From a virus, in IMG/VR virus record IMGVR_UViG_3300037537_000832, positions 1-38,201 of that record: DNA of 38,201 bases. The stretch is one strand, 5' to 3'. Each line of letters opens with the position of its first letter. The stretch's first letter is position 1. The notes under the pieces were generated by a model. That model had not been told where the DNA came from, did no database searches, and saw only the letters and a list, made by a program, of their open reading frames with translations. Position numbers and translations under genes: made by a program. Positions 4,697-35,947 of this stretch are shown here, piece after piece.

Positions 4697-5636
4697 TTTT
4701 ATATTACCTTTTTCTACAATAGAAAAGGATAAGTTTCTAAACTTAAATGAAAAGAAAGATTTATGGGAAGAAAATGATTCTGCAAATATAATTTTTTCTA
4801 CAATAAAGACAATCAAAAATATTAATTTACTTAAATGTGATAAGGAAATTTTATTAATAGATAACAGTCATACCTGGCCAGAAGTAGATTTACCGAATGT
4901 TAGGGTAATTAAAGGGTGGCAAGCATTACCAGTAGAGGAACTTGAAAAGATTCCAGAATATATGAATCACAAAGATATTCAAAATAGTTTAGACAATCTT
5001 GGTTGTTTAACTATGTGGGTATCAATGGCCTTTCATTTAGGAGTACAAGAAGCCAAAGGTGATTATATTGTTTTACAACATAATGATACATTTTATCATC
5101 AAGACTGTTTAGATGAAATGATTAAACAGATGAAAGAAGAAGAACTTGAATATATTTCAGTTGATAATAAGAAGATATGGATTTCAACTTATCTATTAAA
5201 TAAAGATTTTTTAGATAAATATATTAAAGAATATTCACAACAACCAGTAGTAATAAGACCGGAAAATGGTGGATATATAAAGACTAAAAAGATTGGATTT
5301 GCAGATGCGTATTTTTTCTTGTGTAAGAGAAAGTTCTTTGATAATTATAATATAGACTGGTACTATGGTGATACGAATCATGGTGCAACTATCTATTGTC
5401 TTTATCATGATTTAAAGTATCTTCATTTAGGACCTTATTATGATAATCCAAATTGGGAAACAGAATCTCTAACAAAAAAAAGGGAAGAATGGAGCAGAAC
5501 TTTACATACATATTACTATAAAGATGAGCCATTTCTCACTCACCTAAAAGGTGGTTTTTCAGAAAATAAAATGTCATCAAAAGATTTTAATGAAGAATTT
5601 AATGAATATTTACAGGAATTAAACAATGCAAAATGA
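4689..5636 (+). CDS. GT-A-like glycosyltransferase
   Basis: Likely inverting GT2-type transferase: an N-terminal Rossmann-like region (MISFILPFSTIEKDK, KEILLIDNSHTWP) is followed by GDYIVLQHNDTFYHQDC, which sits where the metal-binding DXD strand lies in GT-A enzymes. Here the motif reads QHND rather than DXD. A similar QHD stretch occurs in the gene at 34250, so the two may belong to one subfamily. The start is well supported by AAGGAG at 4677-4682, six bases before the ATG, inside the preceding gene. Donor and acceptor are unknown. Confidence 0.55.
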   Translation: MISFILPFSTIEKDKFLNLNEKKDLWEENDSANIIFSTIKTIKNINLLKCDKEILLIDNSHTWPEVDLPNVRVIKGWQALPVEELEKIPEYMNHKDIQNSLDNLGCLTMWVSMAFHLGVQEAKGDYIVLQHNDTFYHQDCLDEMIKQMKEEELEYISVDNKKIWISTYLLNKDFLDKYIKEYSQQPVVIRPENGGYIKTKKIGFADAYFFLCKRKFFDNYNIDWYYGDTNHGATIYCLYHDLKYLHLGPYYDNPNWETESLTKKREEWSRTLHTYYYKDEPFLTHLKGGFSENKMSSKDFNEEFNEYLQELNNAK

Positions 5637-6546
5637 ACACACACTTTGGACTGAAAAATATCGGCCCTCTAATCTTGAAACTTACATAGGGAACGAACAC
5701 CTCAAAAGTAAGGTTCAAGTTTATTTGGCCAGCGGAGATTTACCACATCTTTTACTGTATGGAAAGGCTGGAACTGGTAAAACAACGCTGGCAAAAATAT
5801 TAGTCAATAATATAGAATGTGATTATCTTTATATTAACGCGTCAGATGAGAACAATGTAGAAACCGTAAGGACAAAGGTTAAGAGTTTTGCCTCAACTAT
5901 GGGGTTCAAGGATTATAAGATTATAATACTGGACGAGTGTGATTATATCACACCAAACGCCCAGGCCGCACTTCGTAACCTTATGGAAACATTTAGTAGA
6001 CATTGTAGGTTTGTTTTAACTTGTAATTTCGTAGAGAGAATAATTGACCCGATACAATCTCGGTGTCAATCATTTCAAGTTATTCCACCAGATAGAAAAC
6101 AAGTTGCAATTCATCTTAGTAATATTTTACAGAGTGAAGGTGTAGAAAGTGAAGTTAGTGATATTGCACTTTTAGTGAATAGTGGATATCCCGATATAAG
6201 ACGAGTTATCAATTCTGCACAACAACAATCTATTGATGGTAAACTGGTTATAGATAAACAGAGTATTGTAGAGAATGATTATAAATTAAAGTTATTAAAG
6301 ATATTAGAAACCCAAGATAGAAAAAGTGCATTTAATAACATTCGTCAGTTGATGGCAGATGCAAAGGTTACAGATTATGCAGATTTATTTAGACTACTAT
6401 ATGATGAAGTAGATAGTTATGGTAAGGGACATATCGCCACCTGTATCTTGGTTATAGCAAAATATGAATTAAGTGATGCCCAAGTAGTTGATAAAGAGAT
6501 CAATGCAATGGCAATGATAATAGAAATATTACAAATAATAAAATAA
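5626..6546 (+). CDS. 44: Clamp-loader ATPase subunit (T4 gp44-like, RFC small-subunit family)
   Basis: AAA+ ATPase that would open and load the phage sliding clamp for DNA replication. It starts with WTEKYRPSNLETYIG, the classic RFC/gp44 N-terminus. It has Walker A GKAGTGKTT (46-54), Walker B IIILDECD (to 106), sensor 1 LTCN (131-134) and the SRC arginine-finger motif QSRCQSF (144-150). At 306 residues it matches the family. The start overlaps the previous stop by 11 bases. The matching gp62-like subunit lies at 15131, about 8.6 kb downstream, whereas in T4 the two genes are adjacent. The first half of this gene is visibly richer in GC than the glycan genes just upstream. Confidence 0.92.
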   Translation: MQNEHTLWTEKYRPSNLETYIGNEHLKSKVQVYLASGDLPHLLLYGKAGTGKTTLAKILVNNIECDYLYINASDENNVETVRTKVKSFASTMGFKDYKIIILDECDYITPNAQAALRNLMETFSRHCRFVLTCNFVERIIDPIQSRCQSFQVIPPDRKQVAIHLSNILQSEGVESEVSDIALLVNSGYPDIRRVINSAQQQSIDGKLVIDKQSIVENDYKLKLLKILETQDRKSAFNNIRQLMADAKVTDYADLFRLLYDEVDSYGKGHIATCILVIAKYELSDAQVVDKEINAMAMIIEILQIIK

Positions 6547-6556
6547 AGGAGTCGTA

Positions 6557-6769
6557 ATGTATTATGAAACACAGGTTGTATTTACTGAGGAAATCGATAC
6601 TAAAAATGGAGTTAAGGAAAAGAAAGTCCGACGCAACTATTTAGTAGAATGTGATTCAGTATCAGTAGCAGAAGCTAAGGTAATTGAATTTCTAAAGGAT
6701 TCAGCATTTTTCTTTGAAGTAAAAGTAGCAAAGGAATCTAAGATAGTTGACGTAGTAGAGGCATCATGA
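6557..6769 (+). CDS. Small DUF4494-like protein
   Basis: A 70-residue acidic protein of unknown function. MYYETQVVFTEE, KKVRRNYLVECDSVSVAEAK and FFEVKVAKESKIVDVV resemble the short DUF4494 family, in which a beta strand pair is followed by an AEA helix; the family is mostly reported from Bacteroidota and their phages. It has a strong Shine-Dalgarno AGGAG at 6547-6551. It overlaps the following ClpP-like gene by four bases (ATGA at 6766-6769). Family assignment is from memory of the pattern. Confidence 0.6.
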   Translation: MYYETQVVFTEEIDTKNGVKEKKVRRNYLVECDSVSVAEAKVIEFLKDSAFFFEVKVAKESKIVDVVEAS

Positions 6770-7374
6770 ACGAAAAATATTGGGGTGAAAAGAAACCACC
6801 TACTAAAAAAGGTGCACAACCAAATGATGGTAAACCAGAAAAACATATATCAGTTCATGAAAATAAGATTTATTATTATTCTAATGTAAACAGAGAAAGT
6901 GCAGTAGAATTAAATAAAAAGATAGGTGAGATAGAATCTAAAAGTTTGACATTAGCAAATACTTTAGATATAGATCCACCTGTACTTAAAATATTGATAA
7001 ATTCAGGTGGTGGTTCAATCACTGCCGGCATTTCATCTATGGATACTATGTTGAGATGTAAAATTCCAATCCATACTTATGTAGATGGATTTGCAGCAAG
7101 TGCAGCCACATTTTTGTCAATAGTTGGTAATTATAGATTTATGAGTAGAAATTCTTATATGTTGATTCATCAGTTAAGTAGTAACTTTTGGGGAACATAT
7201 GCTAACTTTGAGGACGAGAAACAGAATCTTGATTTAATGATGAAAACCATTAAAGATGTGTATAAAGAATATACTAAAGTTCCAATGAAGAAACTTGATG
7301 AAATATTAAAACACGATTTACTGTGGGATGCTAAACAATGTTTAGAGTATGGATTAATTGATGAGGTAATTTAA
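6766..7374 (+). CDS. ClpP-like serine protease, copy 1
   Basis: ClpP/crotonase-fold peptidase. The oxyanion-hole strand ILINSGGGSI (76-85) precedes the nucleophile in DGFAASAATF (S112). The histidine is in YMLIHQ (H135) and the aspartate precedes AKQCLEYGLIDEV (D184). All three triad positions align with E. coli ClpP (S97, H122, D171), so it should be active. The first 30 or so residues are Lys/Pro-rich and not part of the fold. Phage ClpP homologues have been proposed as prohead proteases or regulators of host proteolysis. This one lies among replication-type genes, not next to a visible capsid gene. A second copy is at 16668. Confidence 0.88.
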   Translation: MNEKYWGEKKPPTKKGAQPNDGKPEKHISVHENKIYYYSNVNRESAVELNKKIGEIESKSLTLANTLDIDPPVLKILINSGGGSITAGISSMDTMLRCKIPIHTYVDGFAASAATFLSIVGNYRFMSRNSYMLIHQLSSNFWGTYANFEDEKQNLDLMMKTIKDVYKEYTKVPMKKLDEILKHDLLWDAKQCLEYGLIDEVI

Positions 7375-9759: not shown

Positions 9760-11172
9760 ATGATGATAAAGAATAAAGTACCACATCCAGTAATGGTTAA
9801 TCAAGTCGGTAAAGGTTTATTTGTATTAAATGGTAAAATAGTTGATTATTTGGATCAATTAGAAAAGACTATCTATAAAATAGGAGAATTTTTTGATGCT
9901 GAAAAATTATGGATACCATCTCATCTTTCTTTAGAGAATGTAGAGAAAACTGGTTATATAAATGGTTTTGAAAATCAGGCAAGTATGATACATTCCTTTC
10001 ATGGTGATTCAATAGGGATGTGTTCGCCTACAGTATGTTATCATTGTTATAGTATGTTGTCTGATAAAAAATTGAATGGAAATAAGTGTTATACTGCAAC
10101 TGGTAAATGTACTCGTATAGAGGATGAGGGAGATTCTTTAGAACGATTATTTAATTTTACAATGTCAGAAATTATATTTGTTGGGACACAAAATTATTGT
10201 GAGGATAGTTTATGTGATATTGTATATTATGTTAAACAATTCTTGGATGGGATTGGTTTAAAATATAAACTTAAAATAGCTAATGATCCTTTTTTCGGGG
10301 ATAAGTCAGAGTTAAAAAAGAAGGCACAGTATCTATCGGGAGCCAAAATTGAAATGCTTGCGGAAATACCTAATGAGAATAGAAGTATTGCAATAGGTTC
10401 TATAAATTTACATCACAGAAAATTTATTGAAAATTTTGGTATTGATGCTGAATGTACTGCATGTTTTGGTTGGGGTTTAGAAAGATTTATTCATGTATTG
10501 ATGTTACAAAAGGGAGATAAACCTTTATTTGAACTTAAATGGAATTCATTTCAGAGAAATAATAAAAAATTTAAATCTGATATGAGGTTAAATACTATTA
10601 AAAATGATAATGTGTGGTATAGATATAAAGAAGAACATTATTGGGTTGGGGAAAGAGATTTAAATAAATTAGAAGTAGAATATGATGGTTTATTTGGTTT
10701 CGTGGTCATAGATAGTTTAAGTAAATTAAAAAAATATAAATCTCAGATACAAAAAGGTATTGATGGGATGACGAAAGAATTACAAGCTTGGGATGAAATA
10801 TGGGATTATGTAGAGTTGGAAAGAAGAATTACAATTGGAGTTATATTCTATTGTCAGATAGTTGATGATATTGCTGTACACTGGCAATTTCAATGGTTAA
10901 ATAATATATGGATACCGGATCATGGTTGGAATTTGAATGGTATATTACCAAACAAGAGTGCATATGGTGGACATTGGTGGTGTCATCCAAAATATAGGTA
11001 CGTTAGAAATTTAATACCAAGTTTATTTAATAATTATGCTGTTCATTTAAAGAGTATTGAAATAGATAGAGATTTAGGATATATTGATGGTTGGAATTGG
11101 AAGGCCGTGGGGGTTTCTGAAAAACTTGGTTATAGTGGTTCAACTTGGATAGAGGAAGTAAAATGGATATAA
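9760..11172 (+). CDS. Amino-acid:carrier-protein ligase-like (class II aaRS fold) fused to a GNAT-like domain
   Basis: Residues about 50-255 resemble the seryl-tRNA-synthetase-derived amino acid:[carrier protein] ligases, which adenylate glycine or alanine and load it on a carrier protein instead of tRNA. Motif 2 is GKCTRIEDEGDSLERLF plus NFTMSEIIFVG (115-141). Motif 3 is ECTACFGWGLERF (231-243). C93 (in TVCYHCY), E137 and C235 would match the Cys-Glu-Cys zinc site of that family. No tRNA-binding coiled coil is present. The C-terminal 200 residues are not part of the ligase. They end in GYIDGWNWKAVGVSEKLGYS (about 441-460), similar to the last conserved block of GNAT acyltransferases. The protein might activate an amino acid and pass it to an amine or hydroxyl. 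The GNAT call is tentative; the synthetase-fold call is firmer. Confidence 0.65.
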   Translation: MMIKNKVPHPVMVNQVGKGLFVLNGKIVDYLDQLEKTIYKIGEFFDAEKLWIPSHLSLENVEKTGYINGFENQASMIHSFHGDSIGMCSPTVCYHCYSMLSDKKLNGNKCYTATGKCTRIEDEGDSLERLFNFTMSEIIFVGTQNYCEDSLCDIVYYVKQFLDGIGLKYKLKIANDPFFGDKSELKKKAQYLSGAKIEMLAEIPNENRSIAIGSINLHHRKFIENFGIDAECTACFGWGLERFIHVLMLQKGDKPLFELKWNSFQRNNKKFKSDMRLNTIKNDNVWYRYKEEHYWVGERDLNKLEVEYDGLFGFVVIDSLSKLKKYKSQIQKGIDGMTKELQAWDEIWDYVELERRITIGVIFYCQIVDDIAVHWQFQWLNNIWIPDHGWNLNGILPNKSAYGGHWWCHPKYRYVRNLIPSLFNNYAVHLKSIEIDRDLGYIDGWNWKAVGVSEKLGYSGSTWIEEVKWI

Positions 11173-11775
11173 ATGAATAAAATACTGTTATTATTAATGG
11201 TAGATTTATTATTAGCCCAAACTAATTTACAATTACATTATGATGTAGAACGAAAATATAATACTTCAACTTTAGAAATGTTTAAAGTTGATGAGTATGG
11301 TTCAACATTTTGGTTTGTTGATTTTGATTATGAAAATGGTAATTCTGGTATATGGGGCCCTAAAAGTACATCTATGGCTTATTGGGAGTTTACAAGAATT
11401 TTTAGCATAGATAAAGTTGGATTGGGAGTACAATATAATGGTGGATTAAATACTTATGGTAGTTTTGATCCAGTTTGGTTAGTAGGAGTTGAGTATCCCA
11501 TTAACTTAGGTAGTTTAACATTACTTTCAAGTGTATGGATACGAGAAACTGAATTGTATGATACAGGATTTCAATATACTGCAGTTTGGTTTAAACCATT
11601 TACTGATAGGATAACTTTTATGGGATTCTTGGATGTTTGGAATGAAGATGAAACTATTGTTTTGATGACAGAGCCACAAGTGTGGTATAGTTTCGGAAAT
11701 TTAAGTGTTGGGGGAGAGGTAGAGATTAGTCAAAAACAGATATTTCCAACGATTGGTTTAAAGTGGGATTTTTAA
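11173..11775 (+). CDS. Outer-membrane beta-barrel, DUF5020/Tsx-like
   Basis: A signal-peptide-like N-terminus (MNKILLLLMVDLLLA, cleavage likely at about 15-16) is followed by alternating-hydrophobic strands and a C-terminal Phe, both typical of an outer-membrane barrel. NLQLHYDVERK, STLEMFKVDEYGSTFWFVDFDYENG and SMAYWEFTRIF match the DUF5020 pattern. This family is known mostly from Bacteroidota and resembles the nucleoside channel Tsx. At 200 residues it is full length. The gene directly upstream of yhhQ, one base away, suggests a two-membrane import route for a nucleobase-like compound. A phage gene for an outer-membrane protein is unusual. An Asp in the signal h-region (D11) is odd. Confidence 0.75.
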   Translation: MNKILLLLMVDLLLAQTNLQLHYDVERKYNTSTLEMFKVDEYGSTFWFVDFDYENGNSGIWGPKSTSMAYWEFTRIFSIDKVGLGVQYNGGLNTYGSFDPVWLVGVEYPINLGSLTLLSSVWIRETELYDTGFQYTAVWFKPFTDRITFMGFLDVWNEDETIVLMTEPQVWYSFGNLSVGGEVEISQKQIFPTIGLKWDF

Positions 11776-11776
11776 G

Positions 11777-12469
11777 ATGAGTAACGAATTGTTATTTCTA
11801 TTACAAATAATTATTTCTCTTTCTTTTGTTTTGGGGTTTTATAGACTTGGAAAGGAATGGTTAATTTCATATATTGGATTTGCCGTAATTTTATCACAGA
11901 TTTTCGTCAATAAACAATTTGATTTATTTGGTTGGGCCGTAAGTGGTGGCAATGTTATGTATGCTTCTATATTTTTAGCTACAGATTTGTTAAGTGAACA
12001 TTATGGTAAGAGTGAGGCCAAGAGGGCAGTACATATTGGATTGTTTTTATCTATTATGTATTTAATATTATCACAATTTATTATTGCCTATATACCTAAT
12101 TCTGCAGATTGGGGAGCATCTGGTTGGTTAAGTGGGTTATTTTCATTAAGTCCATCCATAGTTTTAGGTAGTTTGTTGGCATATGTATGTGCACAACATA
12201 ATGATATTTTTCTTTTTCATTATTTAAAAGACAAGACTAAAGGAAAACATCTTTGGTTGAGAAATAATGGTAGTACATTTATTAGTCAATTCATAGATAC
12301 AGCAATTTTTATATCATTTGCATTTTGGATATTGCCTAATTTGTTAGGTTATACAGATATGTTATTATCGTATAATATTATGTTTGAGATATTTATTACT
12401 ACATACGTGTTTAAGTTGTGCGTTGGTGCAATAGACACTGTATTTATTTATTTAAGTAAATATATTTAG
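11777..12469 (+). CDS. yhhQ: Queuosine-precursor transporter, YhhQ/VUT family
   Basis: Inner-membrane importer of deazapurines (preQ0/preQ1 in E. coli; queuine in other members). Family marks are VNKQFDLFGWAVSGGNVMYA, the FLATDLLSEHYGKSEAKRA stretch (about 67-87), and KGKHLWLRNNGSTFISQFIDTAIF towards the C-terminus. About six to seven hydrophobic segments are visible. At 230 residues it is normal length. It starts one base after the barrel gene's stop and is followed by a good Shine-Dalgarno for the next gene, so the barrel and transporter form a pair. No queuosine or DpdA-type base-exchange enzyme is in this window; Nmad1 at 17326 is the nearest nucleotide-modification gene. Confidence 0.9.
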   Translation: MSNELLFLLQIIISLSFVLGFYRLGKEWLISYIGFAVILSQIFVNKQFDLFGWAVSGGNVMYASIFLATDLLSEHYGKSEAKRAVHIGLFLSIMYLILSQFIIAYIPNSADWGASGWLSGLFSLSPSIVLGSLLAYVCAQHNDIFLFHYLKDKTKGKHLWLRNNGSTFISQFIDTAIFISFAFWILPNLLGYTDMLLSYNIMFEIFITTYVFKLCVGAIDTVFIYLSKYI

Positions 12470-12476
12470 GAGTATT

Positions 12477-13886
12477 ATGGCAATAAACTATTCATACAGT
12501 TCGGTTAATTTATCAGGACAAGTAACACAAAGTTTAAAGGATGTTAGTCAGTATATTACTGCAAGTGCAGGTGGTTGGCCAGATTATAAAGTTGGGATGA
12601 TTGCTGGATATGATTTTACTATTGAGAGTGGATCTGGTGATACAAAAATATATGAATTTAATACTAACGTTGCATGTTGTTATGATGCTCCGATATCCCC
12701 GAAGATCAATGGATTATCATCTTATTTATCTACACAAGATATTGATACTCTTTATGTTTATGGTATGGAATGGTGGGGTAGTACTAATCCATCTATATCA
12801 TTTTATAATAAATTAAGTTCAAGTGTGGCTGAACATAATATTTCATCTTCGTTAATTTTACAGGATCAAATTCCTGTTGATAATATTTTCCCAGACACAA
12901 GTTGGCAAATTAAATCTGGATCTAATGAGTATACTTTGTTTGTGGGCTCACCATATAGGTATGATGAATTACTACAATTATCAAGTGGGTCTAATAATAA
13001 AATAAATTTTAGAAATATACTTCAGAGATCACCATCTTCATCTTTAATGATTGATGAATTTAATCCCTCCACCTGTACTCCGAATGATATTTATCCTGAT
13101 TACATTATTAAACGACAGCAAAATGATAGAGGATTGTTGAGTGGAAAGATAGATTTTTATTCGTATGAAGATTCAGCTTTTACTACATTAAGTTCGTCAT
13201 ATGAAGATGGTAGTTATTATGATTCTTATCCATATTATGAAAAATACATTGTAGGGAGTGGTAGTGATGATGTAAGTGGTTATTCGTATAATTATGAATA
13301 CAGTCAAATATTTTTACATAGTTATGATGGTATAATAGATTTAGGAGCCGAGCAGTGTTCTCACAGGTTAATCCCATCTTCGAGTAGTGATTTTAGAAAA
13401 TGGGAAATTGTATCTTCAATACAATATCGTCATATAGCAGTAAGTGGTAGTATTATATCTATGTTTGATGGTTCAGAAAAACAAGTACAAGATTTAGTTG
13501 TTGGTGATAATGTGAAGGCCTTGAGTATAAGTGGTTTAAATCCACAAGGTAGTGATTTTGCAACTTGGACTTCCGGTTCGATATCTGGATCAATTACAGG
13601 TTCTCGTGTTATAGATATTGATTCAAAAATTATACCAGCATATTATAATATCAATAACACATATAAATTACCAGATAATTATGGAAGATTTGTAGAGAAA
13701 AGTGGTTCATTATATCAATTTACTCCATCTTCTGAAATTCATTCTAATAATAAGTTTGTAAGTTTATCTGGAGAGGATATTTCTATTACATCAAATACCT
13801 ATGTTATATCTGATGAAACTTATTACGCAGTCGACCTTGGTGGAGATGATTTATTTTATGTAAATGATATTTTGGTTCATTCTTAA
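12477..13886 (+). CDS. Ser/Gly-rich protein with a degenerate C-terminal Hint domain
   Basis: The 469-residue protein is rich in Ser, Gly and Tyr (for example DVSGYSYNYEYSQ), like phage structural or adhesin proteins. The C-terminal 150 residues look like a Hint (Hedgehog/intein) fold. The N block is SGSIISMFDGSEKQVQDLVV plus GDNVKAL (323-349). The C block is TYYAVDLGGDDLFYV plus NDILVHS (to 469). The residue equivalent to catalytic Cys1 is Ser or Gly and the final Asn is Ser, so self-cleavage is doubtful. The N-terminal 320 residues are not recognised; GYDFTIES and KIYEFNTNVACC are striking. Start is supported by AGGAG at 12468-12472. A role on the virion surface is a guess. Confidence 0.65.
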   Translation: MAINYSYSSVNLSGQVTQSLKDVSQYITASAGGWPDYKVGMIAGYDFTIESGSGDTKIYEFNTNVACCYDAPISPKINGLSSYLSTQDIDTLYVYGMEWWGSTNPSISFYNKLSSSVAEHNISSSLILQDQIPVDNIFPDTSWQIKSGSNEYTLFVGSPYRYDELLQLSSGSNNKINFRNILQRSPSSSLMIDEFNPSTCTPNDIYPDYIIKRQQNDRGLLSGKIDFYSYEDSAFTTLSSSYEDGSYYDSYPYYEKYIVGSGSDDVSGYSYNYEYSQIFLHSYDGIIDLGAEQCSHRLIPSSSSDFRKWEIVSSIQYRHIAVSGSIISMFDGSEKQVQDLVVGDNVKALSISGLNPQGSDFATWTSGSISGSITGSRVIDIDSKIIPAYYNINNTYKLPDNYGRFVEKSGSLYQFTPSSEIHSNNKFVSLSGEDISITSNTYVISDETYYAVDLGGDDLFYVNDILVHS

Positions 13887-16667: not shown

Positions 16668-17276
16668 ATGTTAGAACGTGACATGGAAAAGTTATTGAAA
16701 GTACATTATGCGGATATGCCAGGATTGGATACAGAAACACAAATTTTGTTTAAACAGTTAGAATGGGGTATCAATTTGGATAGTAATACTATGTATCTAA
16801 CTTATGAAATAGATACAGACCAGTTATATTCAGTTATGTCAAGATTCGATAATTTTATCCAATATAGTGGTGGAAAGAAAGATGTAAATTTAGTTATTTC
16901 GTCTTATGGTGGTGATGTGTATGCAATGTTAGGAACTATTGATTACTTTAATTCATTACCAGTTAAAGTAAATACTCATTGTATTGGAGCCTGTATGTCT
17001 GCAGCCGCAGTAATATTGGCATGTGGAACAGGTAAAAGAACAATGAGTGAAAACTCAACGGTTATGGTCCACGAAGGTTCAGCATTTGAGGTCGGTAAAA
17101 CTTCAGATGTTATAAAAGGAGCCGACCATATGAAAAAATTACAAACAAATATAAATCGTATTTTAGGTGATGTTACAAAAAAGACACAAAAGTTTTGGGA
17201 AGAAACTTCCAAACAAGATACATATCTAACATCAGAAGAATGTTTAGAATATGGTATTGTAGATAAAATCACTTGA
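16668..17276 (+). CDS. ClpP-like serine protease, copy 2
   Basis: Second ClpP-fold peptidase, 202 residues, clearly diverged from copy 1. Elements are NLVISSYGGDVYAM (about 74-87), the nucleophile in IGACMSAAAVILACG (S111), the histidine in VMVHEGS (H135) and the aspartate in KQDTYLTSEECLEYGIVD (D184). The triad is complete and the spacing is nearly the same as in copy 1 (S112/H135/D184), which would allow a mixed barrel of two subunit types. Start is supported by AGGAG at about 16658-16662. A promoter-like site overlaps its stop. Confidence 0.88.
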   Translation: MLERDMEKLLKVHYADMPGLDTETQILFKQLEWGINLDSNTMYLTYEIDTDQLYSVMSRFDNFIQYSGGKKDVNLVISSYGGDVYAMLGTIDYFNSLPVKVNTHCIGACMSAAAVILACGTGKRTMSENSTVMVHEGSAFEVGKTSDVIKGADHMKKLQTNINRILGDVTKKTQKFWEETSKQDTYLTSEECLEYGIVDKIT

Positions 17277-20250: not shown

Positions 20251-21645
20251 ATGTCAAAAAAGAAAATAATGTTATTGTCAGATGATTTGAGAATGAGTAG
20301 TGGTGTTGGAACGGTTTCAAAGAATTTTGTACTCGGTACACTTGATAAATATGATTGGGTACAAGCTGGTGGTGCTATAAAACATCCCGAAGAAGGTAAA
20401 GTGATTGATATGAATGATTCAGTTCGTGAAGAAACTGGGATAGAAGATGCATATCTTAAAATATATCCAATAAGTGGTTATGGCAATCAAGAATTACTCA
20501 GACAATTAATGAATATAGAAAAACCTGATGCTATCCTACACTACACAGATCCAAGATTTTGGACTTGGTTGTATCAAATGGAACATGAACTTAGACAACA
20601 CATTCCTATTTTTTATTATAATATATGGGATGATTTACCTTATCCAAGATATAATGAGTTCTTTTATGAATCTTGTGATTTGATTATGAATATATCTAAA
20701 CAAACTGTAAATATTGTAAATAATGTTGCAGTAAAGAAACCACGAACAGACTGGGATAACACATATATTCCACATGGTATTCCAGAAGATAAATTCTACC
20801 CAATAGGTGAGTTAGATATACAGAGTTGGAACCAATTACAAGGATTCCGTAGTTCAGTATTACATAATAAAGATAAAGATTTTGTAGTATTTTGGAATAA
20901 CAGAAATATTCGTAGAAAACTACCGAGTGATCTTATAATGGCATATAAAACATTTTGTGATATGTTACCAAAAGAAAAGTCTGATAAATGTGTATTAATT
21001 ATGCATACTCAACCAGTAGACCAAAATGGAACTGATTTACCTGCTGTAGTAGATGAGATATGTCCTAATTATGATGTTATTTTTTCACATAAGAAATTAG
21101 ACGACAAAGAACTCAATTTTTTATACAATATAGCAGATGTTCAAGTTAATATAGCATCCAATGAAGGATTCGGATTGGGAACTGCAGAGGCAGTGATGGC
21201 AGGAACACCTATTATTGTAAATGTAACGGGTGGACTACAAGACCAATGTGGATTTAAGTTAAAGGGGAAACACGTTACATACGAGGATTATTCAAAAGTT
21301 ATATCGTTTCATGATGATAAAAAGTGGAAGAACAATAAAGATTTAACTTGGGGTGAATGGGTAAAACCAGTGTGGCCAGCATGTCGTTCATTACAAGGTT
21401 CAATACCAACACCATATATTTATGACGATAGGTGTAGGTGGGATGATGTAGCAGACAGACTTAAAGAATGGTATGATACACCAAAAGAAGAACGAAAAGA
21501 AGTAGGATTAAAGGGTAGAGAGTGGATGTTACAAGAAGAAATTGGAATGTCTTGTACGAATATGTGTGAACGATTTGTTCACGATATGGACACAGGATTT
21601 GAGAAGTGGACACCACGAAAAAGATTTACACTTTATAAAGCATAA
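20251..21645 (+). CDS. Glycosyltransferase, GT4-type GT-B fold
   Basis: 464 residues with a Rossmann-like N-domain (KIMLLSDDLRMSSGVGTVSK, typical glycine-rich first loop), the linker IPHGIPEDKFYPI (about 173-185) and a C-domain with ASNEGFGLGTAEAVMAGTPI (302-321). The conserved E-x7-E motif there binds the donor nucleotide sugar in GT4. Acceptor unknown. It opens the glycan island and is followed, after a small basic gene, by another GT4 enzyme, so the two may act in sequence. Shine-Dalgarno AGGA precedes ATG 20251. Confidence 0.85.
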   Translation: MSKKKIMLLSDDLRMSSGVGTVSKNFVLGTLDKYDWVQAGGAIKHPEEGKVIDMNDSVREETGIEDAYLKIYPISGYGNQELLRQLMNIEKPDAILHYTDPRFWTWLYQMEHELRQHIPIFYYNIWDDLPYPRYNEFFYESCDLIMNISKQTVNIVNNVAVKKPRTDWDNTYIPHGIPEDKFYPIGELDIQSWNQLQGFRSSVLHNKDKDFVVFWNNRNIRRKLPSDLIMAYKTFCDMLPKEKSDKCVLIMHTQPVDQNGTDLPAVVDEICPNYDVIFSHKKLDDKELNFLYNIADVQVNIASNEGFGLGTAEAVMAGTPIIVNVTGGLQDQCGFKLKGKHVTYEDYSKVISFHDDKKWKNNKDLTWGEWVKPVWPACRSLQGSIPTPYIYDDRCRWDDVADRLKEWYDTPKEERKEVGLKGREWMLQEEIGMSCTNMCERFVHDMDTGFEKWTPRKRFTLYKA

Positions 21646-21655
21646 GGAGAATAAA

Positions 21656-21838
21656 ATGCCAAGAGCAAAGAAGAAAACGACAACAACTAAATATTCAGCG
21701 AAACGAGCAGGAAGACGTGGACCGGCCGAGCGTAGAAAAAATATTGTAGGTAACTTTAGAGGTTCAGAAGATGTTTTTTGGACAAAGGTTGTCAAGGGTT
21801 TTAAAAAGTTGCTATCACCAGCATTCCCAAAACAATAG
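21656..21838 (+). CDS. Small basic protein, 60 aa
   Basis: The sequence is dominated by Lys, Arg and Thr at the start (MPRAKKKTTTTKYSAKRAGR) and by a basic amphipathic segment at the end (TKVVKGFKKLLSPAFPKQ). An in-frame ATG exists at 21542, inside the preceding gene, but ATG 21656 is chosen because AGGAG at 21645-21649 sits six bases before it. It may bind nucleic acid or act as a small virion or scaffold component. No family recognised. It lies between two GT4 genes. Confidence 0.65.
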   Translation: MPRAKKKTTTTKYSAKRAGRRGPAERRKNIVGNFRGSEDVFWTKVVKGFKKLLSPAFPKQ

Positions 21839-21846
21839 AGGTATAA

Positions 21847-23196
21847 ATGAGTTATAAACCATTAGTGTTAGTAACAGCACCCGTAGGAACCAGAAGTGGT
21901 TATGGTTCACATAGCAGAGATATAGTTAGGTCATTAATTGCAATGGATAGATTTGATATAAAAATCTGGCCAGTTCGTTGGGGATCAACTCCACAAAATG
22001 CATTAAGTGAACAAAATCCAGAAGATAAGCCGATTATTGAAAGAATTTTAGATAGTGCAAATATGGAACGACAACCGGACATACATTTTCATATAGTAGT
22101 TCCAAATGAATTCTCAACAACTGGTAAGTATAACATTGGTATTACGGCGGGATTAGAAACTACTATTATACCACCGGAATGGATTGATGGACTAAATCGA
22201 ATGAACTTAAATATAGTTCCTGCCAACTTTGTCAAGGAGAGTGTGAGTAAAAGTGTATTTGATAAGCATAATGAACAAACTAAAGAAAAAATTGGTGAAT
22301 TAAAATGTACTACTCCAATTGAAGTTTTGTTTGAAGGGACAGACACGAATATTTATAAACCAACCAAAGAGTTTTCTAAAGAATTGGTGGATGAACTGAA
22401 GGTAATAAAAGAAGATTTCTGTTTCTTATTTGTAGGACATTGGTTACAGGGCAGTCTTGGAAATGATAGAAAAGACCTCGGCATGTTAATAAAAACATTT
22501 TTGGAAACATTTAAGAATCAAAAGAAACCACCAGCCTTAATTGTTAAAACATCTGGTGCAACTCCTTGTATATTAGATAGAGAAGAAATTATGGGAAAAT
22601 TAGCTGAAATCAAGAATACAGTAAGTGGTGATTTTCCAAATATTTATGTATTACATGGAGATTTACGAGATGAAGAAATGAATGAATTATACAATCATCC
22701 AAAAGTAAAGGCTCATGTTTCATTTACTCACGGAGAGGGATTTGGACGACCATTACTTGAAGCATCTCTTTCAGAAAAACCTGTAATTGCACCAAATTGG
22801 GGTGGCCAAGTAGATTTTCTTAGTAGTTCAAATGCTATATTATTACCTGGTAGCCTTAATGATGTGAAAAAAGAATCGTTTCCAAAGGATATGCATGTAA
22901 AAGAAGCTAAGTGGTTTACAGTAAATTATAATTACGCGTCAAAAATATTAAAAGATGTATTTGATAATTATAGTAAGTATGTGGTAAAAGGAAAGAAACT
23001 TGCAATAGTAAATCAGACTAAATTTTCACTTGATGCAATGACTAAGAAATTTGAAAAAATACTTGATAAACATTTACCAAAGTTTGATGGACCACCAACA
23101 CCAGTAAAGTTGAATCTTCCAAAATTAAAAAAAGTTAGTTCGGTGGTGAAAGATGCACCCAAAATAGAACTTCCAAAATTAAAAAAGGTGAAATGA
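21847..23196 (+). CDS. Glycosyltransferase, GT4-type, with basic repeat tail
   Basis: GT-B enzyme: N-domain VTAPVGTRSGYGSHSRDIVR (9-28), linker EVLFEGTDTNIYKP, C-domain HGEGFGRPLLEASLSEKPVI (295-314). The C-terminal tail after about 415 carries two near-identical LPKLKKV units (NLPKLKKVSS and ELPKLKKVK) in a Pro/Lys-rich linker, a possible interaction or membrane-contact tail not usual in the family. The DNA of the units repeats too (CTTCCAAAATTAAAAAA at 23116 and 23170). Donor and acceptor unknown. Confidence 0.82.
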   Translation: MSYKPLVLVTAPVGTRSGYGSHSRDIVRSLIAMDRFDIKIWPVRWGSTPQNALSEQNPEDKPIIERILDSANMERQPDIHFHIVVPNEFSTTGKYNIGITAGLETTIIPPEWIDGLNRMNLNIVPANFVKESVSKSVFDKHNEQTKEKIGELKCTTPIEVLFEGTDTNIYKPTKEFSKELVDELKVIKEDFCFLFVGHWLQGSLGNDRKDLGMLIKTFLETFKNQKKPPALIVKTSGATPCILDREEIMGKLAEIKNTVSGDFPNIYVLHGDLRDEEMNELYNHPKVKAHVSFTHGEGFGRPLLEASLSEKPVIAPNWGGQVDFLSSSNAILLPGSLNDVKKESFPKDMHVKEAKWFTVNYNYASKILKDVFDNYSKYVVKGKKLAIVNQTKFSLDAMTKKFEKILDKHLPKFDGPPTPVKLNLPKLKKVSSVVKDAPKIELPKLKKVK

Positions 23197-23197
23197 T

Positions 23198-23677
23198 ATG
23201 GAAATAAAAATTGATTGTCCAGGATGTTATGATACAGATTCATGCTTCGAAGATACACAAGAAAAATTCAAATCTTATATGTGTTTTAATTGTGGATTTA
23301 TGAGTAGTTCATATTATACAAAAGATAGTGTGCATGAAATTGAAGGTACATCTCAACTTGTGAAAGAATTAAAATTTTTTGATGATACACGAAAAATATA
23401 TTGGTATCCATCAGTTGTTAATATGGGTAAACTTGGAATAATTTATCCAGAGGGAAGTGTAGAAAATTGGGGATGGAGATTTGCATCAGTAATTCAAGTA
23501 GAACCTGATGAAATAGAATCTTTTCCGATTCCCAATGAAGAAGGAAAGTTTTATACTGAAAAACTTGATGTAACTAATGCAATGGAATTTGGACAATATG
23601 AATTTTTACGGGCCTGTGAGGGAATGGGGATTGTTGGAAACAATTTATCACCAAATAATCCTACAGAAGAAGCATAG
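23198..23677 (+). CDS. Zinc-ribbon-like hypothetical protein
   Basis: 159 residues. An N-terminal zinc ribbon is formed by C7-x2-C10 (DCPGC) and C29-x2-C32 (MCFNC), with an extra C16. The remainder (KIYWYPSVVNMGKLGIIYPE, WGWRFASVIQVEPDE) is acidic and unrecognised. The start is one base after the GT4 stop. The next gene begins with GTG in its stop codon (TAGTG). Zinc ribbons with this kind of acidic body recur in marine T4-like phages, but I know no function. Confidence 0.65.
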   Translation: MEIKIDCPGCYDTDSCFEDTQEKFKSYMCFNCGFMSSSYYTKDSVHEIEGTSQLVKELKFFDDTRKIYWYPSVVNMGKLGIIYPEGSVENWGWRFASVIQVEPDEIESFPIPNEEGKFYTEKLDVTNAMEFGQYEFLRACEGMGIVGNNLSPNNPTEEA

Positions 23678-24153
23678 TGGGATTTTACCAAACTCATAAG
23701 GGATATGTATCTGATAAAACAACAGTTAATTCACAGACTGCCCAACGGGGTCGTATTTATGAGTTAAGATATAAAAGTGAAACATCATCTAAGACTAAGT
23801 ACTTAGTTATGGGTTTAAACATTTACCCGAAGTCAGGTGGAAAGTCCAAACAGCTTTTACATTGTTTAGATTTAGATGAAATTCCAATAGCAGAAGTTAG
23901 GAAACTAATAAAAACGGGTACTACTATAAAAACAAGGGTTGAAGAGGGACTTTCACATCAACGATTAGAGATAGATGGTAGAAACACTGCATATTACGAT
24001 AGTGAATTAAAAAAACTTCAAAAAAGAATTCCTGGTGTTTATAAAACTTTTAAATTGAGTAAGATAACAAGATTTGAACTTACCGATTATGATTTTATAT
24101 CAATAGCAGATACTGCAACTAAAAAGAAGTTTGGGATAGTAGATGAAAATTAG
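23677..24153 (+). CDS. Hypothetical phage protein
   Basis: 158 residues, mixed charge, not recognised. Begins with GTG at 23677 overlapping the previous stop. Predicted secondary structure is beta-rich at the start (GRIYELRYKSETSSKTKYLV) and helical at the end. It contains KTRVEEGLSHQRLEIDGRNT and LTDYDFISIADTATKKKFGI. No motifs of enzymes or membrane segments. It overlaps the next glycosyltransferase by 11 bases. Together with the preceding zinc-ribbon gene it interrupts the run of glycosyltransferases and may be a core phage gene. Confidence 0.6.
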   Translation: MGFYQTHKGYVSDKTTVNSQTAQRGRIYELRYKSETSSKTKYLVMGLNIYPKSGGKSKQLLHCLDLDEIPIAEVRKLIKTGTTIKTRVEEGLSHQRLEIDGRNTAYYDSELKKLQKRIPGVYKTFKLSKITRFELTDYDFISIADTATKKKFGIVDEN

Positions 24154-24802
24154 CTACGGCATTACAGTTCATAATGAAGCAGATGAACTCAATAAGTTAT
24201 TAGAAATATTAGTACATAAGACAGACCCAGAAGATGAAATAGTAATTTGTGTAGATGGTGATGATGATGGAGTTAGGTTCGTATTAGATAGTTGGACCCA
24301 ACAATATGCACATGCAAAGATGATTAAAGTTTATCAGCGAAAGCTTGATGGTGATTTTTCAGCTCAAAAAAATTCGGTTATAGAAGAATGTGATGGTGAT
24401 TATATATTTCATATTGATGCGGATGAATATCCACATGAAACATTATTAGAACAACTCAAACCTATATTAGAAATAAATGATAACGTGGACTTGATTTGGA
24501 TACCAAGAGTTAATACCATTGAGGGTATGGAACAACACCATATACGGAAGTGGGGTTGGAAAGTTTCTGATAAGGGCTGGGTAAACTATCCTGATTATCA
24601 AGCGAGATTTTTTAGAAATGATAAAAGTATACGATGGACTCGACCACTACACGAATTAATTACAGGTTGTAAAACATATGCACATCTACCACCACAGGAA
24701 GAATTATCGTTATATCATCACAAAACAATAGATAAACAAGAACAGCAAAATCTATTTTATAATCAAAATTTTAGTAAAGAGTTAAATGTGAGACATGCAT
24801 AA
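24143..24802 (+). CDS. Glycosyltransferase, GT2 family
   Basis: GT-A enzyme that would use a nucleotide sugar with a divalent metal. N-terminal ISYGITVHNEADELNKLLE (3-21) is the classic first strand and helix, followed by IVICVDGDDDG. The DXD motif is FHIDADEYP (D92, D94). IRWTRPLHELITG and later residues resemble WaaE-type enzymes that act on lipopolysaccharide core. 219 residues, near the shorter end of the family. No membrane segment. Its start overlaps the preceding hypothetical gene by 11 bases. Confidence 0.85.
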   Translation: MKISYGITVHNEADELNKLLEILVHKTDPEDEIVICVDGDDDGVRFVLDSWTQQYAHAKMIKVYQRKLDGDFSAQKNSVIEECDGDYIFHIDADEYPHETLLEQLKPILEINDNVDLIWIPRVNTIEGMEQHHIRKWGWKVSDKGWVNYPDYQARFFRNDKSIRWTRPLHELITGCKTYAHLPPQEELSLYHHKTIDKQEQQNLFYNQNFSKELNVRHA

Positions 24803-25637
24803 AAAATATTTATTATCAAATGGCGATAGTTGGGTACTCGGTAGTATGTTAGATACCGAGTGGATGAGAAAAAAATATTTATCAGAAAGGGGTATTAGAT
24901 ATGATGAGTTTTGTAGTGAGATTGGAGAGGAAGAAGAGTATACTTGGTTGTGTAATAATACTAATTATCACAACGATGCAGGAGAAGCACAGAAAAAAAG
25001 TAGATTTTCCACTGTGGTTAGTGATAAATTAGGATTGGAAGAAATAAATTTGTCTTGGGAAGGCAAATCTAATAAGGCAATAATGAGGACTACTATTGAG
25101 TGGATACTTGATAATAAGGATAAACTTGAAGATACATTTTTTTTAATTGGGTGGACAGCACCAATGAGAGGTGAATCTGTGGATGATAAAAATGACTCGT
25201 ATGGGAGGGATTGGATAGAACAAAAAATAGTGGCTGAACTCGAAACCCTGTACCTTATATTGAATCTACAAAATTATTTTAAAGTAAATAATGTAGAGTA
25301 TATGTTTATAGATTTATTTTCAGACTTATTTTTACCAATGGAATATAATATTCGTGATTCTTCTGACGAAAAGTATCGAAGGTTTTCAACATCTTTGAGT
25401 TTATACGATAGTTTATTAGGAGAACTTGATAAAGATAAATTTTTGAGTCAAAAATCTTTAGTAAAAATAATCGAAGAAAATGTTGATTTGGGTAATATTA
25501 AAGACGGTGAACAATTTGTGGAGTTACCAATTAAAAATAATTATGGTGGAGATACCAAGTTTATGGGTCATCCGACAATATCATCAAGTAAAGTTATAGG
25601 AAATTTAATATATGAGAAAATACTTACCAACAATTAG
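24795..25637 (+). CDS. SGNH-like protein, copy 2 (diverged catalytic end)
   Basis: Shares with the protein at 8460 the N-terminal YLLSNGDSWVLGSML (5-19), the strand ending FFLIGWTAPMRGES and the segment LILNLQNYFKVNNVEYMF. It is longer (280 against 242), mainly through an insertion after the first block (ERGIRYDEFCSEIGEEEEYT). The block V D-x-x-H seen in copy 1 is replaced by KFMGHPTISSSKV, so the histidine has a candidate but the partnering Asp does not. It may be a hydrolase with altered chemistry or a binding protein. It overlaps the GT2 gene by eight bases and the next gene by 26 bases. Confidence 0.58.
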   Translation: MHKKYLLSNGDSWVLGSMLDTEWMRKKYLSERGIRYDEFCSEIGEEEEYTWLCNNTNYHNDAGEAQKKSRFSTVVSDKLGLEEINLSWEGKSNKAIMRTTIEWILDNKDKLEDTFFLIGWTAPMRGESVDDKNDSYGRDWIEQKIVAELETLYLILNLQNYFKVNNVEYMFIDLFSDLFLPMEYNIRDSSDEKYRRFSTSLSLYDSLLGELDKDKFLSQKSLVKIIEENVDLGNIKDGEQFVELPIKNNYGGDTKFMGHPTISSSKVIGNLIYEKILTNN

Positions 25638-26019
25638 TGATTTAATAGATAGACTTTCTATTGTTCAGTTAAAGGAAGTCTTTATACCAGAACACAAAGA
25701 AGAATACGCCCAAGAAATCAAAGATATAGTTCATGATTTAAATGAGTTAGGTTTAAATACAGAATACGATTATAGTAATTTAGGGAAACTTATTAGGGCA
25801 GTTATAGTTTTATCACAGATGAATCTACATATTTGGCATAATGAAACCGAGTATCGAAAAGGTGAAGGTGATGGTAATCTTGGATTGACTCATGGATTAA
25901 ATGGAATTAGAAATACAGCAAAGAATATTATACAAGACCAACTTGGAGATGATGGAAGAAAAGATTATAAAGTAGATTGTATAGCAGCCGAGTTTGATGA
26001 TTGGGAAGTGAGTTGGTAG
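25612..26019 (+). CDS. Conserved hypothetical protein of glycan clusters
   Basis: 135 residues, helical. TISDLIDRLSIVQLKE (7-22) and MNLHIWHNETEYRKGEGDG resemble a small family found beside glycosyltransferases; it recalls DUF4254, with its W-x-x-E-D/E and Arg-rich helix, but I am not certain. It overlaps the SGNH-like gene by 26 bases, more than most neighbours, yet the reading frame is well filled. No catalytic motif can be named. It is followed by a small membrane protein. Confidence 0.55.
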   Translation: MRKYLPTISDLIDRLSIVQLKEVFIPEHKEEYAQEIKDIVHDLNELGLNTEYDYSNLGKLIRAVIVLSQMNLHIWHNETEYRKGEGDGNLGLTHGLNGIRNTAKNIIQDQLGDDGRKDYKVDCIAAEFDDWEVSW

Positions 26020-26226
26020 GTGTTCAGAGAAACTCGTGAAAGGTCAATAAGAAAATCTATTGGTTGGAGAATAGTTGCAATAATTAATAGTTATATTATT
26101 TTATCAATGTATCTTACAGATTCACCTTTATATAATGCCATTCTAATGAATATTACTGGAGCAGTTTTATATTATGTGTATGAGAGGTCATGGAATAATT
26201 CTCACAAAGGAAGGTATTTAGAGTGA
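26020..26226 (+). CDS. Small DUF2061-like membrane protein
   Basis: 68 residues with a GTG start directly after the previous stop. RSIRKSIGWRIVAIINSYII (8-27) and ITGAVLYYVYERSWNNSHKG are the two landmarks of DUF2061, a two-helix inner-membrane family (S-x-x-K-x-x-x-W-R first helix; Y-x-x-E-R-x-W-N after the second). Function unknown; occurs in bacteria near polysaccharide and sulfate genes. The stop overlaps the next gene's GTG. It is one of only two integral inner-membrane proteins I see here, with YhhQ. Confidence 0.75.
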   Translation: MFRETRERSIRKSIGWRIVAIINSYIILSMYLTDSPLYNAILMNITGAVLYYVYERSWNNSHKGRYLE

Positions 26227-27092
26227 TATTTTGGCGAATCGTAGATAATCAATTACATCCAGTTCACGAAACGGACAATCTTGGATTTGAAAAATCAGAA
26301 GGATTACGAATACCAGACGAGTATTTAGATAATCAAGAATTTATGGTTATGAGAACCACACATGGAATTGGTGATTGGGGAATAATATCAGCAATGCCTC
26401 GATTATTGAAAGAGAAGTATCCAAATTCCAAGGCAGTCGTTCCAACTAAAAAACTTCTAAAAAAATTATTTGGTCAAGAACATAATAATGTTCATGTTAT
26501 ATTTGATAATAATCCATTTGTAGATGAGTTTGTTGATGAAATAGATGGTGAGGTATTTCACGACCACTATCGAATATATGATAAAGACAATACTGATATT
26601 CCACTTATTAAACAGGTGTTAGAGTTTTGGCAATTCACAGAAGAAGAAATGAGTGATTCACAACCAGAAATGTATTGGTCAGATGAGGAGAAGATGTTAG
26701 GAGATTCTATCATTCAAGAATATGTTGGTAATAAAGAATTTGGGTGCTTATTAATTTCTGATAGGTTTGGTACACAATATGGTAAACATCATCAAAAAAC
26801 TTATGATAAAGATGTTCAAAATTTTATGAATATACTTACGGAATATCAATTACCATATTTTTATTATACTGCCAACTCCATAGAAGAAACAAAATTTAAT
26901 TGGGTTGATAAAGTATTAGATATGAAATATATTGATTTAAGAATTCAGTTGTATATTAAATCAAAGGCAAAAATTAATTTATCTAATCAATGTGGAACTA
27001 ATCAGATTGTAGTTAGATATTCAAAATGTTTTGAATCACAGAGACAATTTCCGTTGGCACATAATTTCGTAGAAGGGGAAGTTTATTTATGA
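26223..27092 (+). CDS. GT9/heptosyltransferase-like glycosyltransferase
   Basis: THGIGDWGIISAMPRLLKEK (46-65) followed by VVPTKKLLKKLFGQEHNNVH and VIFDNNPFVDEF resembles the N-domain of GT9 enzymes, where GIGD-x-hydrophobic-x-x-P-x-hydrophobic-x-x-L is the signature of ADP-heptose transferases. The C-domain part (IQLYIKSKAKINLSNQCGTN) fits the donor-binding loop loosely. It starts with GTG overlapping the membrane protein's stop. The HldE-like kinase at 7374 gives weak support for a heptose link. 289 residues, shorter than most GT9 (about 340). Confidence 0.55.
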   Translation: MIFWRIVDNQLHPVHETDNLGFEKSEGLRIPDEYLDNQEFMVMRTTHGIGDWGIISAMPRLLKEKYPNSKAVVPTKKLLKKLFGQEHNNVHVIFDNNPFVDEFVDEIDGEVFHDHYRIYDKDNTDIPLIKQVLEFWQFTEEEMSDSQPEMYWSDEEKMLGDSIIQEYVGNKEFGCLLISDRFGTQYGKHHQKTYDKDVQNFMNILTEYQLPYFYYTANSIEETKFNWVDKVLDMKYIDLRIQLYIKSKAKINLSNQCGTNQIVVRYSKCFESQRQFPLAHNFVEGEVYL

Positions 27093-27775
27093 TTACGGTA
27101 GTTCAGAATTTTATTTGTACTAAAGAAAAAAGATTAAATCTTATTCAAAAAGAAGTTCCTAATATGGCAAAGGTCTTTAAAGATTATGACTTTCATATAA
27201 ATTATGGAATAGTTGAAAATTTATTTGAAGTTGCTAGAGCTTATGAAGATAGTGTAGAGAAATTAAATTTTTATAATAATTTGGATCCAAATTGGGGGTT
27301 GGTTACATTGTCGTTGCTGGAAGAAGTTAAAACACCTTATACTCTGATTTTATGTGAAGATTTTGAGTATCGTATTACTTATAGTAGGTGGAGTAGAATG
27401 ATGGAAGAGTTTGTGGAAAGGGATGTAAGTTATATGCCAATAGGTAGATTATGGAAATATACAGAAGAGAAGTATCATGGTGGATACGAATCAGGTAAAG
27501 ATTTATGGTTTTATCCAGCAACAAAGTCACCTGGTTCTTCATTATCAGTTGATGCGATTTATAAGACTGATTTATTAAGGGAAAAATTAATAGAATTACA
27601 AAATTATCCATCAAAAAGATTTCCATTAAATCTTCCACATCATTATGAAGATATATTTCACGAAAATTATAATAATGGTGTTAGGAAATGGGGAAAAGAT
27701 GTTTTATGTGCAATCCCCAAAGAAATTATATTGATGCATGAACAAAACGAAACTGAAACAACATTGAATAAGTAA
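27089..27775 (+). CDS. Putative GT-A-like glycosyltransferase
   Basis: 228 residues. VKTPYTLILCEDFEYRITYS (about 89-108) looks like a GT-A donor-metal strand with EDFE in place of DXD. The N-terminus MITVVQNFICTKEKRLNLIQ resembles the first nucleotide-binding strand and helix. SLLEEVKTPY just before is usual for GT2-like proteins (x-x-x-x-x-A-x-G-x-Y in the canonical form). Otherwise not recognised. It starts in an ATGA overlap with the GT9-like gene, so it is likely cotranscribed with it. The confidence reflects that no full motif set is present. Confidence 0.4.
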   Translation: MITVVQNFICTKEKRLNLIQKEVPNMAKVFKDYDFHINYGIVENLFEVARAYEDSVEKLNFYNNLDPNWGLVTLSLLEEVKTPYTLILCEDFEYRITYSRWSRMMEEFVERDVSYMPIGRLWKYTEEKYHGGYESGKDLWFYPATKSPGSSLSVDAIYKTDLLREKLIELQNYPSKRFPLNLPHHYEDIFHENYNNGVRKWGKDVLCAIPKEIILMHEQNETETTLNK

Positions 27776-27776
27776 T

Positions 27777-29931: not shown

Positions 29932-29941
29932 GAGAAAGATA

Positions 29942-34248: not shown

Positions 34249-34249
34249 A

Positions 34250-35194: not shown

Positions 35195-35220
35195 AAAAAT
35201 ATTTAAGGTGGACTTAAAAA

Positions 35221-35946: not shown

Positions 35947-35947
35947 A

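Follow-up and report, generated by a model that had tools for sequence, protein, structure and literature searches.

Why would a phage carry the gene for a putative outer-membrane channel directly ahead of a gene for an inner-membrane transporter of queuosine precursors? The pair lies in IMG/VR record IMGVR_UViG_3300037537_000832, a linear viral sequence of 38,201 bases and therefore a fragment; "the window" below means this whole stretch. The source virus is a marine phage. A T4-type clamp-loader ATPase (5626-6546) backs the phage nature of the window, and its best phage matches are at 48% identity, in an uncultured phage of 484 kb, and at 42%, in Microcystis phage Mel-JY01. The phage collection searched with this ATPase contains no close isolate. 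The features of the locus are as follows.

11173..11775, plus strand: DUF5020-family outer-membrane beta-barrel of 200 aa, a predicted nucleobase/deazapurine channel (Pfam, AlphaFold2, VIA-align, conserved inward positions)
11173..11217, plus strand: signal-peptide-like N-terminus, residues 1-15, cut likely after LLLA (by eye from the translation; helix 3-13 in the model)
11764..11768, plus strand: TGGGA, a likely ribosome-binding site (junctions of the window and of contigs L003-L006)
11777..12469, plus strand: YhhQ/QPTR (Vut_1, COG1738), a predicted inner-membrane queuosine-precursor importer of 230 aa (PF02592, TIGR00697, profile match to E. coli YhhQ)

The two genes are almost contiguous. 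The TAA stop codon of the DUF5020 gene (11773-11775) is followed by a single G and then by the ATG of yhhQ. The TGGGA motif sits within the 3' end of the DUF5020 gene, about 8 bases ahead of this ATG, and is kept in all five phage copies of the junction, which suggests a Shine-Dalgarno-like site and translational coupling of the two genes. A scan of IMG/VR with the window YhhQ returned five further contigs (L002-L006), and in four of them (L003, L004, L005 and L006) the DUF5020 gene likewise ends exactly one base before yhhQ. The identity of this upstream gene is confirmed by Pfam in L003, L004 and L006, and the L005 copy scores 250 bits with our own DUF5020 profile. The barrel proteins of the five contigs differ by up to 40%, and the spacing and the TGGGA are nevertheless maintained. 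Low dN/dS ratios (0.06-0.10 for yhhQ; 0.20-0.29 for DUF5020, with 0.07 for its closest pair) indicate that both genes are under purifying selection, and together with the recurrent one-base spacing they argue that the pair is not a chance arrangement. The remaining contig, L002, has a yhhQ that is 96% identical to that of the window and lacks DUF5020; a GNAT/PP-loop gene occupies its place. No match to a preQ1 riboswitch or other Rfam family occurs near the phage pair, and tRNAs and one Flavo-1 are the only RNA families near the phage pair or the cellular DUF5020 and yhhQ genes.

The module is an accessory one. We fetched 80 related phage loci by way of a neighboring marker gene, and of the 39 that reach 5 kb upstream of this marker only two carry the DUF5020-yhhQ pair, both being the L005 and L006 contigs already found. 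Scanning viral contigs with a single DUF5020 protein, the patterns of which are too degenerate, gave no relative, and scanning them with a DUF5020 alignment gave the same contigs and nothing further. The best DUF5020 match in the phage collection, MT837008, was rejected as a phage copy: it looks like Bacteroidales DNA, with SusC/D genes and an NCS2 permease after DUF5020. It and MT837471 are both gut "Bacteriophage sp." records that look cellular, the latter holding by eye housekeeping enzymes that are apparently ordinary Bacteroidales genes.

Several other genes of the window can be described. The gene directly upstream of the barrel (9760-11172) encodes a class II aminoacyl-tRNA-synthetase-like protein that resembles both archaeal-type SerRS and amino acid:carrier-protein ligase. 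The gene that immediately follows yhhQ in all five contigs (12477-13886 in the window) encodes a protein with a weak virion structural PHROG match, the C-terminal part of which looks Hint-like by eye. There are two different ClpP-type proteases (6766-7374 and 16668-17276) and two adjoining MORN-repeat proteins (845-2215 and 2212-2991). A run of surface-sugar genes extends from 20251 to 38133 and includes glycosyltransferases, a GDP-mannose dehydratase, an epimerase, a DegT aminotransferase and a sulfotransferase, as well as a CTP-transferase/NeuB/SAF fusion at 35939-37516.

The second gene of the pair had been called a clear YhhQ homologue in a preliminary description of this DNA, and profile searches bear this out. 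The protein matches Vut_1 (PF02592) with 157.9 bits against a cut-off of 27.2 (E = 3.1e-46) in Pfam and the queuosine precursor transporter equivalog TIGR00697 with 181.8 bits against 50.95 (E = 1.3e-53) in NCBIfam, and it aligns to an E. coli YhhQ profile with probability 98.6 (E = 1.2e-15). Judged by these matches it is a genuine QPTR member. Its score with the narrower E. coli-type model NF008406 (59 versus 252 bits) falls below the cut-off and so places it outside that subfamily. PreQ0 and preQ1 are 7-deazaguanines, that is, analogues of guanine. E. coli YhhQ is reported to be required for the salvage of both (PMC5372724), and the window protein very likely imports them as well.

The first gene encodes a member of DUF5020 (PF16412; 100 bits versus a cut-off of 36.7, E = 2.1e-28), with residues 18-200 aligned to positions 3-212 of the 212-position profile. 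Sequence searches found no relative with a solved structure for this protein or for YhhQ. An AlphaFold2 model of the barrel was built from 49 sequences, namely those of the window and of the scan loci (mean pLDDT 91.7, pTM 0.82). The model has 13 strand segments and a helix at residues 3-13, and the protein ends in a Phe, as do 44 of the 49 relatives in the alignment. The barrel-like strands, the C-terminal Phe and the one-base distance to yhhQ that were pointed out at the start are thus in agreement with the ORFs, the model and the junction, and the proposed signal peptide fits both the look of the N-terminus and the modeled helix.

Structural comparison with VIA-align ranks Tsx with bound thymidine first (1tlw; Z = 19.3, rmsd 2.3 A, 176 residues aligned at 14% identity), ahead of PcoB (Z = 16.5) and the OMPLA, KdgM and NanC barrels (Z of about 15). 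Foldseek has a different order of its own, in which the VhGalP and KdgM porins lead and Tsx is absent from the top 50. No Pfam Tsx match is obtained up to E = 10, where DUF5020 alone matches, and hhalign gives a probability of 1.1 against the one E. coli Tsx sequence that was compared. According to the model, then, the barrel shares the fold of Tsx but lies outside the Tsx family by sequence; the early reading of a Tsx-like barrel stands for the first of these and not for the second. When the inward face of the strands is assigned by hydropathy rather than from coordinates, most conserved residues turn out to point inward. Conservation reaches 85% or more at 28 inward positions, and at 26 of these the window protein carries the consensus residue. 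The conserved set includes acidic residues (E35, D50, E72, D154, E182 and E184) and aromatic ones (F37, F46, F48, Y70, F152, W156 and W171), which are retained in the phage copy. The protein is likely to be a channel for purine-type bases.

The neighbors of DUF5020 in cellular genomes lead to a similar assignment. We took a census of the best 80 of 476 confirmed DUF5020 loci from one genome scan, a sample that leans to phage-like copies. An NCS2 nucleobase permease is directly adjacent on the same strand in 57 of these 80 loci (on the downstream side alone in 49, on the upstream side alone in 3 and on both in 5), and in none does one occur only at a distance; 21 loci are without an NCS2 neighbor and 2 stop at a contig edge. 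Representative permeases were confirmed with PF00860, and two of them also with TIGR00801. The plain reading of this neighborhood is that DUF5020 forms an outer-membrane channel for purine-type bases. The 21 loci without NCS2 include all 13 census loci from Neomarinimicrobiota (Fidelibacterota); in these, DUF5020 mostly lies behind the gene for a membrane protein of 209 residues with no Pfam match and faces an amidohydrolase. Among 30 further Fidelibacterota DUF5020 loci, four (L227, L230, L241 and L254) have an NCS2 neighbor.

Co-occurrence of DUF5020 and yhhQ in Bacteroidota had been suggested as a check. As neighbors the two genes recur in phages, in four further contigs, but not in cells, where NCS2 is the usual neighbor of DUF5020. 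No yhhQ occurs in the fetched flanks of the best 80 cellular DUF5020 loci. Conversely, none of 30 yhhQ loci, from a search that covered 50 of the 80 census genomes, has DUF5020. These counts rule out the two genes as cellular neighbors, and the coupling is therefore known from phages alone. A base channel with the Tsx fold is thus the probable identity of DUF5020, and the phage would have exchanged its usual inner-membrane partner, NCS2, for YhhQ.

The histories of both genes bear on the identity of the host, for which the preliminary description had pointed to Bacteroidota. In a YhhQ tree that used 10 of the 13 Fidelibacterota copies, the six phage copies cluster as a single clade nested among those of Marinimicrobia (starred sets of 15 and 16 rows). 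The addition of 20 more Fidelibacterota stretches reveals two YhhQ types in this phylum. The phage proteins fall with a type of 17 rows (12 with DUF5020, 1 without and 4 phage; support 92/91, not starred), and the other type has 16 rows, namely 15 genomes without DUF5020 and, from one genome that has DUF5020, its second copy. The DUF5020 tree, built with 12 of the 13 Fidelibacterota loci (L029 was left out), unites the phage clade and all 12 Fidelibacterota rows in a starred set of 21 rows. From these affinities, which point away from Bacteroidota, we infer that the phage infects Marinimicrobia (Fidelibacterota). The gene-tree evidence for this host is good and not decisive, because yhhQ and DUF5020 are cargo genes.

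The presumed hosts have a distinctive genotype for queuosine salvage. The 13 Fidelibacterota genomes behind the DUF5020 census loci all encode YhhQ, TGT and QueA, but full-length QueC is missing from every one of them, with short PP-loop matches in three, and no QueF exceeds the cut-off. Published salvage patterns indicate that preQ1 is the only usable precursor where QueF is absent (PMC5372724, PMC10570037), so genomes with TGT and QueA and without QueC and QueF would need preQ1. Weak PF14489 matches beside the second yhhQ were considered as possible QueF genes and set aside; the one case that was read, in genome G008, is a GTP cyclohydrolase I. In that genome a yhhQ of the second Fidelibacterota type lies between PTPS and GTP cyclohydrolase I genes (L299, G008:C96:50000-52200). 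This position suggests that the second type could serve some other purpose linked to pterins or deazaguanines.

This genotype can be followed across the phylum. Among 120 Fidelibacterota genomes, DUF5020 is present in 43. YhhQ occurs in 38 of these 43 genomes and in 43 of the 77 without DUF5020, whereas full-length QueC occurs in 2 of 43 and 58 of 77, respectively. If only YhhQ-bearing genomes are counted, then QueC is found in 0 of 38 with DUF5020 and in 27 of 43 without. On this gene content, DUF5020-bearing Fidelibacterota are mostly salvagers. The negative link between DUF5020 and QueC also holds in genomes of at least 2.0 Mb (1/35 versus 28/42), and it cannot be created by gene gaps in drafts, but it could be created by kinship. 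A RecA tree was made with 104 of the 120 genomes (9 had no match, and 7 with partial, split or divergent matches were excluded), and on it DUF5020 needs 15 changes, of which 12 are forced. A self-coded Pagel test on this tree favors dependence of DUF5020 on QueC (LR = 35.0, p = 4.5e-7), on YhhQ (p = 0.008) and on the YhhQ-plus, QueC-minus state (p = 5e-5). A stricter test with independent pairs nearly always goes in the same direction, but has too few pairs and is not significant (median p = 0.25-0.5). With phylogeny-aware tests that are mixed in this way, the link between DUF5020 and the salvage genotype is suggestive.

On balance we favor the reading that the pair is a phage-borne, translationally coupled route that imports 7-deazaguanine (preQ1/preQ0) across two membranes and feeds tRNA queuosine (Q) in the host. 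The DUF5020 barrel would pass the base through the outer membrane, and YhhQ would then move it across the inner membrane. A host with TGT and QueA and without QueC and QueF could use imported preQ1 directly. If such a host is unable to make preQ1, then uptake would limit Q, and an additional channel and pump from the phage would raise it. The extra intake would maintain Q in the four tRNAs with GUN anticodons, which read about a fifth of the phage codons. We infer the substrate of the barrel, preQ1 as the cargo, the tRNA destination and the host in this scheme; the barrel and YhhQ quite probably work as one route, and the chance that tRNA Q is the destination seems about even.

Codon usage offers a reason why Q would be useful to the phage, and is not proof of it. 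In 28 ORFs of the window, NAY codons make up 21% of all codons, and 1538 of the 1757 NAY codons (87.5%) are NAU, as follows from the 30% GC content of the phage. Translation at NAU codons is reported to be increased by Q, and to fall without it in experiments with E. coli (PMC10570037). A broader proposal, which we offer tentatively, is that in Bacteroidota and Fidelibacterota DUF5020 might be the outer-membrane channel that has been missing for purine-type bases, and in QueC-less Marinimicrobia for queuosine precursors too. The phage might then have joined the unlinked halves of its host's preQ1 salvage in one operon, and so keep queuosine at the wobble position during NAU-rich translation.

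A different purpose, also considered in the preliminary description, would be modification of the phage DNA: the pair would import preQ0 for an anti-restriction 7-deazaguanine, and the inserting enzyme would lie elsewhere on the genome. The window is only a fragment, and most other yhhQ phages carry adjoining deazaguanine genes (HCTV-1, Vid5, Vibrio 2.275.O, L214 and L217). Their yhhQ lies among or next to QueC, QueD, QueE and FolE in HCTV-1, QueE, GAT-QueC, QueD and FolE in Vid5, and QueF, a queuosine gene and FolE in Vibrio 2.275.O. It is near a gene annotated as queuine tRNA-ribosyltransferase in phiFN37, and by our own reading and model cross-hits it is among FolE/QueD/QueE/QueC genes or DpdA-like ORFs in contigs L213-L217. 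In Roos there are only hypothetical genes, one of which weakly matches our DpdA-like model. However, models for DpdA-like proteins, QueD, FolE and QueF that were built from the genes of these phages, and that gave positive controls, find nothing in the window, the related loci or 17 further pieces, all fragments, which include contigs of 131.8 kb and 91.4 kb. The TGT family is likewise absent from all 46 phage records, though its model may miss DpdA (one DpdA-like L213 ORF has no Pfam match). QueE matches in related phages are at the radical-SAM level only, with at most 24 bits versus 284-374 for the seeds.

A QueC-like gene could speak for the same use, as L005 and L006 have it close to the pair and L002 has it ahead of yhhQ. 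It resembles QueC only in 44-48 C-terminal residues that contain a cysteine motif, and it scores 22.9 bits against a cut-off of 22 in L006, 19.9 bits in L002 and 22.9 against 150.3 with NCBIfam TIGR00364; the case for a true preQ0 synthase is weakened accordingly. The gene is a fusion of GNAT and PP-loop domains of about 390 aa (L002:3456-4622, L005:3826-5028, L006:3829-5028). It is frequent in this phage group independently of yhhQ, with two versions of the N-terminal domain among 14 aligned proteins. An S-adenosylmethionine decarboxylase-like gene lies between it and DUF5020 at 5001-5357 of both L005 and L006. As no DpdA-like, QueD, FolE or QueF gene accompanies the pair in the window or related phage pieces, tRNA queuosine is the simpler use; DNA modification is less likely than this and, by itself, unlikely.

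General purine scavenging, in which DUF5020 passes guanine or hypoxanthine and YhhQ takes up purines for phage DNA synthesis, would suit the NCS2 permeases that usually adjoin DUF5020 in cells. We consider it quite unlikely, since a phage in search of purines could have acquired an NCS2 partner instead, and the partner that it has is a QPTR protein above the equivalog cut-off that groups with the type from DUF5020-bearing, mostly QueC-less Fidelibacterota. It is improbable that the barrel is a functionally unrelated, surface-altering protein (for superinfection exclusion, for example) and a chance cargo neighbor, as the many surface-sugar genes of the window, the L002 yhhQ without a barrel and the porins carried by other phages might suggest, because the one-base spacing and Shine-Dalgarno-like site are kept in five contigs with such divergent barrels, the phage copy keeps the conserved lumen residues, and the family is strongly tied to base permeases in cells.

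The preliminary interpretation is therefore partly supported: its core is right, and its host and purpose need to be changed. The pair recurs in other phages, and TGT and QueA are present in the likely hosts, so the condition that was set to refute it did not arise. For DUF5020, a domain of unknown function, this leads to a testable role as an outer-membrane nucleobase channel. Such a channel would fill a step in queuosine-precursor salvage for which the literature searched describes no protein; we found there no earlier description of DUF5020 as a channel or of an outer-membrane step for Q precursors, and no mention of the outer membrane or Tsx was found in two papers on Q-precursor transporters (PMC5372724 among them). 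The reading would also connect a micronutrient for tRNA modification with phage infection in an ocean phylum that is almost uncultured. If it is true, this is to our knowledge the first phage that supplies transporters for both membranes.

Phage YhhQ itself is already known, and what is new here is phage-borne YhhQ salvage with a predicted outer-membrane partner. The transporter of Pantoea phage Vid5 was called the first detected in a phage (PMC6266253), and YhhQ is described as encoded by some phages without correlation to a group (PMC6884629). Vid5 and these other phages, like the window phage, have their own preQ0/preQ1 transporter. They mostly combine it with deazaguanine synthesis clusters, and no DUF5020 partner is seen near yhhQ in the HCTV-1, Vid5, Vibrio 2.275.O, phiFN37, L213-L217 and Roos stretches, whereas the window phage, in which no such cluster was found, has the putative outer-membrane channel. 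E. coli Tsx has the same barrel fold as the DUF5020 protein by structural match, but is longer (294 aa with its signal versus 200 aa) and has no sequence homology that we could find. The DUF5020 proteins of Bacteroidota and Fidelibacterota belong to the same Pfam family as the phage copy, which keeps their lumen residues; the cellular copies pair with PF00860 permeases, and the phage copies with YhhQ. E. coli YhhQ is of the same QPTR family as the window protein, which differs in being phage-encoded and coupled to a barrel.
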